This document shows positions 54,917 through 59,506 of a stretch of DNA of 64,000 nucleotides, piece by piece; position 1 is the stretch's first letter, and the number at the start of each line of letters is the position of its first letter. The notes below the pieces were generated by a model. That model did no database searches, was not told the origin of the DNA, and was given only the letters and a program-made list of their open reading frames with translations. This DNA comes from Maricaulis sp. (lineage in GTDB: Bacteria > Pseudomonadota > Alphaproteobacteria > Caulobacterales > Maricaulaceae): assembly GCA_017643585.1 (NCBI GenBank), contig JAEPND010000009.1:1-64000 (forward strand), read 5' to 3'. The position numbers were made by a program, and so were the translations under genes.

Positions 54917-56557
<1,641 letters not shown>

Positions 56558-56564
56558 GTAGACC

Positions 56565-57557
56565 TTGAACCAAACGACGAACTCCAGCGTTCATCGCGCA
56601 GAGGGCGAGGCTGTTTCAACAGCCTCGCCCCGCGACTATTTTGACTTGATGAAACCGCGGGTGATGACGCTGGTCGTTTTCACCGCCTTTGCCGGTCTCA
56701 TCGCGGCGCCGACGGATGTCGATCCCTTCCTGGCGCTGATCTCGATCATTTCCCTGGCCATCGGGGCGGGCGCGGCTGGAGCGCTCAACATGGCCTATGA
56801 CGCCGATATCGACGCCACCATGAAGCGCACGCAAAAGCGCCCGGTGCCGCGCGGTGCGGTGTCCATCTCCAATGCCTATGGCATGGGCCTGGTGGCTTCC
56901 ATCCTGTCTGTGCTGATGATGGCCCTGGCGGCCAATTATCTGGCGGCCGGCCTGCTGGCCTTCTCGATCTTCTTCTATGCCGTCATCTACACGATGATCC
57001 TCAAGCGCTCGACGCCGCAGAATATCGTCATTGGTGGTGCGGCCGGTGCCTTTCCGCCGATGATCGGCTGGGTGATCGCGACCGGCGAGATCTCGCTGGA
57101 TGCGGTGATCCTGTTCATGATCATCTTCCTGTGGACGCCGCCGCATTCCTGGGCCCTGGCGCTGTACAAGTCCGGTGACTATGCCGCAGCTAATGTGCCG
57201 ATGATGCCGGTCGCCAAGGGCGCCAAGTCCACGCGCCTGCAGATCCTTTTGTATTCCATCGTGCTGGTGATCTTTGCCGGCGCGCCCGTCCTGACCGGCC
57301 TTGGCGGACTGGTCTATGCCGCAACATCGCTGGGCGGTGGCGCGCTCTTCCTGCTGCTGGCCGTGCGCATCTACAAGTCCCGCGCGGGTGAAGCCGGCTC
57401 CGCTGAAGAGGGCGCCCTCTATGCCGTGCGTGCCGGTGACAAGGCCGCGCGTGATCTCTTTGCCTTCTCGATCGGCTATCTGACGGTCCTTTTTGCCGCA
57501 TTGATTGTTGAGCACGCATTTGGTGCTTATTGGGCAGTTCCCGGAGTAAATGGCTAA
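56565..57557 (+). CDS. ctaB: Protoheme IX farnesyltransferase (heme O synthase)
   Basis: CtaB farnesylates heme b to heme o for the oxidase. Polytopic membrane protein of 330 residues with the Asp-rich NMAYDADIDATMKRTQKRP motif (about 74) and DYFDLMKPRVMTLVVFTAF at the first helix. The start is taken as TTG at 56565, 7 bases after ctaD; no better upstream-compatible start is visible. Its stop TAA shares a base with the ATG of coxF. Confidence 0.95.
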   Translation: MNQTTNSSVHRAEGEAVSTASPRDYFDLMKPRVMTLVVFTAFAGLIAAPTDVDPFLALISIISLAIGAGAAGALNMAYDADIDATMKRTQKRPVPRGAVSISNAYGMGLVASILSVLMMALAANYLAAGLLAFSIFFYAVIYTMILKRSTPQNIVIGGAAGAFPPMIGWVIATGEISLDAVILFMIIFLWTPPHSWALALYKSGDYAAANVPMMPVAKGAKSTRLQILLYSIVLVIFAGAPVLTGLGGLVYAATSLGGGALFLLLAVRIYKSRAGEAGSAEEGALYAVRAGDKAARDLFAFSIGYLTVLFAALIVEHAFGAYWAVPGVNG

Positions 57558-57838
57558 TGGTCCCCGATAACGGTTCCGACACCCAGAATGATACCGCCAC
57601 AGAGGTGGACACCGAGACAACCGATCCGGCGCTCGACAGTTCGGGTGCGCCAACGTCGGAGAATTTCGGCTTCTACCACCGCGAAGGTCAGCCGTCCGGT
57701 GAGAGTGTGGAACTGAACGAGGACCAGATCGCCGCACGCAAGAAGCGCAATGTCGCAATCGCCTGGAGCCTGGTGGCCTTCATGGTTGTGATATTCCTTG
57801 TCACGGTCGCGCGGTTGAGCCAGAACGTGTCCAGCTGA
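57557..57838 (+). CDS. CoxF-like small membrane protein
   Basis: 93 residues with one C-terminal membrane span (VAIAWSLVAFMVVIFLVTVARL). This span and its preceding ARKKRN match the CoxF protein found between ctaB and ctaG in alphaproteobacteria. The first 60 residues are an acidic, disordered-looking extension (Thr, Asp, Glu, Ser-rich) not found in the short rhizobial versions. The role in oxidase assembly is presumed from context. The start overlaps the ctaB stop (TAATG). Confidence 0.75.
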   Translation: MVPDNGSDTQNDTATEVDTETTDPALDSSGAPTSENFGFYHREGQPSGESVELNEDQIAARKKRNVAIAWSLVAFMVVIFLVTVARLSQNVSS

Positions 57839-57878: not shown

Positions 57879-58943
57879 ATGCGCATTCAAGATACCTACA
57901 ACCAGATCGCTGACCGATTTGTCGGGCTGGATCGCAAGTATTGGGTGATCGCCCTGAGCGTTCTGGTCGGGCTGACGATCATCCAGCAAATACTGTTTTC
58001 GATCATGGCCTCAACGGGCGGGCTAGGGGGCTTTGCGGCGCAGGTTTACAGCTTCGCCGCCGGCTTTACGCGTCAGCCGGTCAGCGTGCCTGTACTCGTG
58101 CTCTTGTTGCACAGCGTGTCCACCTTCTGGCTTGGCGAAATCGGTACCCGCTTCCGGCGTTGTCTTGTGCCCGTAGCGCTGCTGCTGGTGGCGGCCATCC
58201 TGGTTGGCTGGATCGCCCGATATTGGCTTTATCAGGGACATACGGGTGCGCTCGCCTTGGGTGTTCTGACAGATCTTTTGATGCTCATTGCCGTTGCGTT
58301 ACCGACGATTATCAAAGTGCAACTCCTGTCCCGGGAGAGTTCGGGGCGCCCAAGCACGGCACTCTGGTGGGAGATGTCGGCACTCGCCTTGCTGGTCATA
58401 CCTGAGCTGGCTCAGATCCTGTCAATGATCACGCAGCTGGTCATGGGGGCGGGTTCCGCCGCTCGGTCTGGAGGCGGAGGGGCAAGTTCTGTTCTCGGCG
58501 TCGCAGTCATGGCCAGCTGGTATTTCTGGTTCGACCGGATGTGGCGCGTGCGCTTCAATCGAGTATTGGCGACGCTGCATCTGGCGACAGCGATGGTGGG
58601 GCCGCTGACGCTGGCTATTTACGCGATCGGTCTGGACGCCCTCTCGGTCTGGCGCCGGCTAGAGACTGGAGATCGTTGGTCAATGCCCGCCAGTGGGGAT
58701 GGCGTGGACTACGCCGCAGTCGTTGCGATGGGCGATCATGTGACGCTCTTTAACCTGATCGCGAATGCCCTATTTCTGATCGTGTTCCTCGAAGCCATGG
58801 TCAGGAAAATGATGGGCGGAACCGATCCGTCGTATGATGCGGCAACAGCACGCAGCCTGCGCCGCTATGCCGCTCTTGTATTGTTGGCCGGACTCCTGTT
58901 TATGGGCGGGAATTTTATCGTGTATTCATCGCTGACTCTATGA
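57879..58943 (+). CDS. Unrecognised polytopic membrane protein in the cytochrome oxidase operon
   Basis: 354 residues with about eight hydrophobic segments (around 22-44, 68-88, 96-115, 122-148, 163-185, 203-218, 230-251, 286-308 and 330-352, some weak). Only four histidines occur, at 78, 121, 234 and 287, three of them in or at the edge of predicted helices (LLLHSVSTFW, ATLHLATAMVG, GDHVTLFNLIANALF), a pattern that could bind heme or metal. A glycine-rich loop (GSAARSGGGGASS) lies at 192-204. I recognise no family. It lies between coxF and ctaG and overlaps the ctaG start by 4 bases, where the usual alphaproteobacterial operon has no gene. Transcription and translation with the oxidase genes are therefore nearly certain. 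Confidence 0.8.
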   Translation: MRIQDTYNQIADRFVGLDRKYWVIALSVLVGLTIIQQILFSIMASTGGLGGFAAQVYSFAAGFTRQPVSVPVLVLLLHSVSTFWLGEIGTRFRRCLVPVALLLVAAILVGWIARYWLYQGHTGALALGVLTDLLMLIAVALPTIIKVQLLSRESSGRPSTALWWEMSALALLVIPELAQILSMITQLVMGAGSAARSGGGGASSVLGVAVMASWYFWFDRMWRVRFNRVLATLHLATAMVGPLTLAIYAIGLDALSVWRRLETGDRWSMPASGDGVDYAAVVAMGDHVTLFNLIANALFLIVFLEAMVRKMMGGTDPSYDAATARSLRRYAALVLLAGLLFMGGNFIVYSSLTL

Positions 58944-59506
58944 TCCGCTTGCCACAAGACAAAAACACCCGTGTTGCCGTGATGGCTGCCTTTGGCGCCG
59001 TGACCATGGTGGGCGCTGCCTTTGCCGCCGTGCCGCTGTATGACCTGTTCTGCCGGGTGACCGGTTACGGGGGTACCACGCAGGTTGCCGTGGGTGAGGC
59101 GGGCGAGATCCTTGACCGTCAGGTGACGGTCTATTTCGACGCCAATACTGAACGCGACATGCCGTGGAGTTTCGAGCCGCTGCAGCGCTCGCTGACCGTC
59201 CAGGTCGGGGAGAGCGGGCTGGCCTATTACCGGGCCACCAACACGTCGGACCAGCCGGTCACCGGTGTCGCCTCTTATAATGTCGCGCCCTACAAGGCTG
59301 CGCCCTATTTTTCCAAGATCCAGTGTTTCTGCTTTACCGAGCAGACCCTGGCACCGGGCGAAAGCATGGACATGCCGGTCCTGTTCTTCGTCGACCCTCT
59401 CATGGATGGGGAGCGCCGCATGGATGATGTGACGTCCTTCACCCTCTCTTACACCTTCTTTGAAACCGACGGTGCTGCGTCCTCTTCCAGCGACGCCGCG
59501 CCTTAG
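58940..59506 (+). CDS. ctaG: Cytochrome c oxidase assembly protein CtaG (Cox11)
   Basis: CtaG delivers copper to the CuB site of subunit I. A single N-terminal membrane span (about 13-32) is followed by a periplasmic domain. VPLYDLFCRVTGYGGTTQ opens the domain, and the copper-binding Cys129-Phe-Cys131 lies in KIQCFCFTEQ. Length 188 is typical. It is coupled by a 4-base overlap to the unknown membrane protein upstream. Confidence 0.96.
   Translation: MIRLPQDKNTRVAVMAAFGAVTMVGAAFAAVPLYDLFCRVTGYGGTTQVAVGEAGEILDRQVTVYFDANTERDMPWSFEPLQRSLTVQVGESGLAYYRATNTSDQPVTGVASYNVAPYKAAPYFSKIQCFCFTEQTLAPGESMDMPVLFFVDPLMDGERRMDDVTSFTLSYTFFETDGAASSSSDAAP

Follow-up and report, generated by a model that had tools for sequence, protein, structure and literature searches.

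A membrane protein with a probable COX1-derived C-terminal third encoded between coxF and ctaG in a Maricaulis aa3 oxidase operon

The oxidase operon in the 64,000-nucleotide stretch of Maricaulis sp. DNA analysed here (the window) carries, directly before the gene of the CuB copper chaperone, a reading frame that raises three questions: what its product is, where it came from and what it does beside the oxidase genes.

The genes of the operon run in the order ctaC, ctaD, ctaB, coxF, X, ctaG, ctaE, DUF983 and SURF1, where X denotes the reading frame in question. Pfam assigned the neighbours of X to COX2, COX1, UbiA (ctaB), CtaG_Cox11, COX3, DUF983 and SURF1. Among them are ctaD, the intact catalytic COX1 gene of the operon (54920..56557, + strand), ctaB, encoding a heme O synthase of the UbiA family (56565..57557, +), and ctaG, encoding the Cox11-type CuB copper chaperone (58940..59506, +). 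The 94-residue, single-helix product of coxF (57554..57838, +) was without a Pfam match; its name was taken from an earlier note on this DNA, and its start was set at the ATG that overlaps ctaB. X itself is an intact ORF of 354 codons (57879-58943, +) that opens with ATG, and its stop shares the four bases ATGA with the start of ctaG, which begins at 58940. Place and overlap were therefore found as the earlier note had given them, and its description of a polytopic protein was right as well, with about nine membrane helices counted by eye.

Scans with the whole X protein found no family in Pfam (E ≤ 5), NCBIfam (E ≤ 10), PADLOC or PHROGs (E ≤ 1), and a phage or defence gene was ruled out by the lack of a match in PHROGs and PADLOC. 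The statement of the earlier note that X belongs to no family thus holds for the protein as a whole and fails for its C-terminal third, which very probably descends from COX1. A confident match to an unrelated family, which would have spoken against a tie to the oxidase, did not turn up in these searches.

Ancestry of the C-terminal third and the metal ligands

Comparisons at the sequence level make it highly likely that residues 208-324 of X (58500..58850, +) share ancestry with CtaD/COX1, covering the end of helix X and helices XI and XII. First, a profile built from 12 CtaDs scored X at 36.3 bits and its homologue in a second genome, G004, at 27.0 bits, as compared with a maximum of 10.3 bits for block shuffles of the two proteins (1300 each) and 6.9 bits for the best other ORF of the window. 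Second, BLAST matched X to 12 of 12 CtaDs (E 5e-9 to 6e-5), and hhalign of the pair of X and its G004 copy against CtaD plus the slot protein of G011 (see below) gave a probability of 95% over residues 138-323. Third, segment 206-330 searched alone matched a single model of 18950 in NCBIfam, which was CtaD (E 0.0055, 15.4 bits), and a single model of 24736 in Pfam, which was COX1 (E 0.079, 12.2 bits). The curated COX1 cut-offs (PF00115, 34.8 bits; TIGR02891, 670.75 bits) were reached neither by X nor by its segment, and COX1 was found among PDB sequences neither by a two-row X profile nor by segment 206-330. In addition, tblastn of X against 61 related genomes returned the G004 orthologue and, at E 4e-6 to 8.5e-4, a further 12 matches that were weak and partial. 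Each of these begins at X residue 208 or 209, and ctaD is present at all 11 of the loci that were checked (L003 and 10 others; the twelfth, L009, is a contig end).

The COX1 features kept in X comprise WYFWFD (within the stretch WYFWFDRMW-RFNR) at the turn between helices X and XI, RFNRVLATLH of helix XI, the WRR and DY of the loop that joins helices XI and XII, and the LEAMVRK that follows helix XII. Past helix XII, residues 304-354 (58788..58940, +) provide an additional C-terminal helix and are the best-kept part of the protein, 42 of the 51 being identical in G004. A recent duplication of the operon's own ctaD is disfavoured, since among the 12 CtaDs tested the own one was the weakest BLAST match (34.3 bits; other CtaDs, 38.9-47.4 bits). 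Because the C-terminal third appears to derive from oxidase subunit I, the link of X to the oxidase is strongly supported, and in this respect the proposal of the earlier note stands.

An AlphaFold2 model of X from a 25-row alignment was helical throughout (pLDDT 62.7, pTM 0.60); an earlier two-row model was poor (pLDDT 45.4). The 25-row alignment includes COX1 rows, and the model is therefore partly circular. None of its 373 Foldseek matches reached E ≤ 0.001, and the first heme-copper oxidase, cbb3 subunit I, appeared at rank 23 (TM 0.40); the fold comparison with heme-copper oxidase subunits that had been proposed earlier thus gave no significant match (best E 1.3). We take the predicted model as evidence neither for nor against a COX1 fold. 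X, with 354 residues and about nine membrane helices, falls short of the twelve helices of that fold.

X has four histidines only (78, 121, 234 and 287), exactly as listed in the earlier note, which had placed weight on them as possible heme or copper ligands. The comparison with G004 and COX1 did not justify that weight. His78 and His121 are lost in G004, and the two that are kept, His234 and His287, do not lie at a COX1 metal ligand; His234 sits where some CtaDs carry a non-ligand histidine in helix XI. The ligand positions of heme a, heme a3 and CuB are taken by us to be those of known oxidase structures, in COX1 helices II, VI, VII and X. Measured against them, none of the COX1 metal ligands is kept in X and no X histidine aligns with a ligand position: X is without the HxH of helix X, without a counterpart of the CuB histidines and without the first four COX1 helices, and neither an HxH nor a CxxC-type site was seen in it by eye. 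X itself probably binds neither heme nor copper. A membrane protein that handles heme or copper through histidine ligands in its helices might be expected from the company of ctaB and ctaG and from the two histidines shared with G004; however, the loss of the other two, the non-ligand position of His234 and the lack of a recognisable HxH or CxxC-type site make this very improbable. Furthermore, the search against CtaA, NnrS and copper transporters suggested in the earlier note, extended to SURF1 and CtaG, revealed no relation to X in Pfam (E ≤ 5) or NCBIfam (E ≤ 10). Since X keeps no COX1 metal-binding residues, it probably assists or mimics the oxidase and is not a heme or copper carrier.

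Selection on X and its divergent core

Between this genome (G000) and G004, X showed a dN/dS of 0.45 (95% interval 0.33-0.59), with 134, 105 and 186 differences at the three codon positions, and its replacements keep hydrophobicity to a degree that only 2 of 2000 permutations equalled. The dN/dS value indicates a gene that is under selection yet fast-evolving, and together with the homologue in the same slot of G004 it marks X as more than a chance reading frame. Protein identity was 50% for X, as compared with 93-97% for ctaC, ctaD, ctaB, ctaG and ctaE (CtaG 93%), 89% for DUF983, 76% for SURF1 and 74% for coxF, and dS was 1.03 for X versus 0.28-0.53 for ctaC to ctaE and coxF, 0.69 for DUF983 and 0.85 for SURF1. 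The coxF gene (window 57554-57838) is likewise fast-evolving, with 73.6% identity to G004 and a dN/dS of about 0.36.

These values bear on the strongest rival explanation, namely that X is a relic: a COX1-derived gene that no longer has a function and is decaying, and whose reading frame persists through the overlap with ctaG, stops and frameshifts in X being purged because they would harm translation of the overlapping gene. The four-base overlap and the rapid divergence of X next to a CtaG at 93% identity are what such a relic would show. However, selection acts at the residue level, as seen from the upper bound of 0.59 on dN/dS and the kept hydrophobicity, and the N-terminal 35 and C-terminal 51 residues are very conserved; we regard the relic as unlikely.

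Divergence is unevenly spread along X. Residues 1-35 (57879..57983, +), with a helix predicted at 3-15, are identical to G004 at 23 of 35 positions, and the variable core of residues 36-205 (57984..58493, +) at 55 of 170. Among codons whose encoded residue is the same in both genomes, synonymous differences amounted to 7/22 in residues 1-35, 38/51 in residues 36-205 and 30/89 in residues 206-354 (core versus C-terminal part, Fisher p 3.8e-6), and to a fraction of 0.19-0.28 in ctaD, ctaB, ctaG and ctaE. Such far higher synonymous divergence in residues 36-205 suggests that the core predates the species split or was exchanged.

No significant COX1 similarity was detected by shuffle tests in residues 1-205, either alone or anchored to the C-terminal match. 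With the N-terminal part of X alone, 58 of 1929 reported shuffles scored as high as or higher than the real sequence on the best profile and 1485 of 1870 on the other; for G004 the two profiles gave 731 of 1741 and 911 of 1641, and with anchoring 483 to 1912 of 2000 shuffles did so. As the two shuffle tests gave no support, we do not claim a COX1 origin for this part. In alignments, residues 1-205 can be placed against COX1 helices V-IX, where PTIIK of the core (142-146) stands opposite COX1 PTGIK and resembles COX1 helix VIII, and with hand-set helix bounds most K and R residues fall on the inner side of X, which fits the N-in topology of COX1.

X might, then, be a chimera, in which an unrelated and exchangeable membrane domain (36-205), for example a decoy or a lineage-specific regulator, would do the work and the COX1-derived tail would only target it to the oxidase. 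The absence of a COX1 signal in residues 1-205, together with the synonymous divergence of the core relative to the C-terminal part and to ctaD, ctaB, ctaG and ctaE, points in this direction. The number of helices, PTIIK and W164 nevertheless fit COX1 helices V-IX without strain, and the core matches no other family in Pfam, NCBIfam, PADLOC or PHROGs; a chimera seems rather unlikely to us.

The slot before ctaG and other truncated COX1-like ORFs

According to the earlier note, related operons have nothing between coxF and ctaG. Our survey of this slot covered 30 of 57 genomes with CtaG, and the CtaG locus was obtained for 16 of 19 genomes of the genus. A slot ORF occurred in 3 of the 16 genus loci (G000, G004 and G011) and in none of 14 loci from other genera; the claim therefore holds for 13 genus loci and all of those from other genera, and does not for G004 and G011. 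A CtaB+CtaG+CtaE tree needed two changes to account for the occupied slot. The absence of X from 13 of 16 genus loci implies that X is dispensable for the oxidase, and is also compatible with a relic. In the empty genus loci coxF and ctaG are adjacent or overlapping, save in G003. There (L018) an ORF-free gap of 117 bp separates the two genes, which overlap by four bases in most genomes of the genus; in the operon tree G003 falls close to G000 and G004, and the gap might mark the place of an X that has since been lost.

The G004 homologue of X, with about 50-51% protein identity, lies in the same slot, so the one direct homologue is not scattered away from oxidase genes. X was found in two of 299 genomes of the order (G000 and G004), along with six partial matches (E 4e-5 to 8.5e-4), and in the same two among 61 relatives. 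A search of the class found it in its own genome only of 385, with four partial matches at 208-324; a scan of genome contigs gave one X locus, and tblastn of a plasmid collection gave no match at E ≤ 0.01.

The slot of G011 is occupied by a protein of 395 residues (L030:2138-3319:-) with COX1 sequence over helices IV to XII (157 bits); it scores above the cut-off for Pfam COX1 (94.6 bits, E 8e-27) and matches PDB COX1 chains at E 2e-28. Its ligands have been replaced, HFH by QVQ and GHPEVY by GQWEVS, and the HH of helix VII is absent. X showed no significant similarity to it (BLAST E 0.065), and a tree of the helix IX-XII segments, which has long branches, did not join the two; this dissimilarity and the tree are compatible both with a single origin followed by many losses and with two separate origins. 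The G011 ORF ends 64 bp clear of ctaG with its 395 codons open, which argues against a relic held open by overlap.

Searching 119 genomes of the family with the G011 protein revealed more truncated COX1-like ORFs, and the short ones have dN/dS values of 0.22-0.44. Between ctaD and ctaB, they were found in four of six genomes of genus g18 (228-255 aa; L067:3779-4486:+, L068:4065-4748:-, L069:4321-5007:- and L071:305-1069:+) and in G715 (163 aa; L070:4557-5045:-), the latter with a Pfam E of 1e-4, below the cut-off. The g18 ORFs begin with a lipobox-like start (FLLAGC and variants), followed by a COX1 helix VI-like piece and then by helices IX-XII, and the HFH of helix X has become HAQ, HYR or HYQ or is gone. 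Apart from the operon, orphan ORFs of 225 aa with COX1 helices IX-XII were found in G029, G708 and G709 (L072:4669-5343:+, L074:3362-4036:- and L075:3715-4389:+). These have TANRHAY in place of COX1 VAHFHY and a dN/dS of 0.22-0.27, and the G029 ORF matched NCBIfam CtaD at E 2e-13; an impression by eye that the orphans keep COX1 helices I-II was unsupported on testing. In G029, about 4 kb with an unrelated 399-aa ORF part ctaB from ctaG (L073, 4346-8503, reverse strand). In a search of 398 genomes of the order, G035, G011, G708 and G029 ranked above full-length CtaD among the matches listed, a set from which short ORFs with low scores may be missing. Some of the short ORFs in other genomes have comparable four-base overlaps with ctaB, a point in favour of a relic.

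We tentatively suggest from these sequences that Maricaulaceae may repeatedly keep a heme-less truncated COX1 in or near the oxidase operon, as mimics or decoys, and that the Maricaulis slot may have held at least two forms, the core of one having been exchanged between lineages. Such pseudo-subunits would act by loading or retaining CtaG and further assembly factors, or would shield the oxidase as decoys.

A possible role in oxidase assembly and comparison with known systems

According to one study, CtaG of Paracoccus becomes associated with freshly synthesised subunit I at an early stage, and both co-precipitate (PMC5249081). As CtaG has subunit I for its client, and X is apparently COX1-derived, metal-free and coupled to CtaG, a mimic, placeholder or accessory is the simplest reading. 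We put at about even the chance that X is a non-catalytic, COX1-derived mimic or placeholder that aids oxidase assembly together with CtaG, or an accessory subunit. Specifically, X would be made in step with CtaG through the four-base overlap and would dock where subunit I docks, either on CtaG or on an assembly intermediate of subunit I; as a placeholder or mimic it would help or tune oxidase assembly, or it would remain as an accessory subunit.

The last alternative can also be framed separately, within the same broad reading: X would remain attached to the mature aa3 oxidase or its supercomplex as a heme-less partner packed against CtaD, with no role in assembly. Helices XI-XII of X, being COX1-derived, might make use of surfaces already present on CtaD, and its position in the operon agrees with this; yet X is lineage-restricted and very divergent, and it is coupled to ctaG and not to the gene of a structural subunit, which makes a purely accessory subunit decidedly doubtful.

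Few catalytic membrane proteins are as conserved as cytochrome oxidase subunit I. A ligand-free COX1 derivative kept by selection beside the CuB chaperone would represent a respiratory-chain pseudoenzyme and a natural probe of how subunit I is recognised by CtaG/Cox11 and related factors. The G011 form, plainly COX1 with QVQ for HFH, would be the best experimental entry point. Such a pseudo-subunit I was not described in the portions of the literature searched (including excerpts of PMC4013037, PMC9145763 and PMC5249081, and a term count in PMC6431628 that came to zero).

Compared with CtaD/COX1 (PF00115, TIGR02891), X is homologous at residues 208-324 and is encoded in the same operon, but it lacks helices I-IV as well as the heme and CuB ligands, scores below the curated values, has an extra C-terminal helix and shows no significant COX1 similarity in residues 1-205. 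With CtaG/Cox11, SURF1 and CtaA it shares the company of the operon, and a role of X directed at subunit I would match theirs in outcome; however, X has no sequence relation to them in Pfam or NCBIfam, and CtaG carries a metal site whereas none is recognisable in X. The short ORFs beside ctaD (G035, G690, G697, G703 and G715) and elsewhere (G029, G708 and G709) resemble X as truncated COX1 derivatives under selection, all retaining the helix IX-XII part; they differ in their length of 163-255 aa, in their other helix sets and loci, in the lipobox-like FLLAGC-type start of four of them and in the single ligand-like histidines that persist in some. Finally, although the G011 slot protein is clearly COX1 throughout, spanning helices IV-XII with about 32% identity to CtaD, and its gene does not overlap ctaG, it resembles X in occupying the same coxF-ctaG slot with an intact, COX1-derived and ligand-free reading frame.
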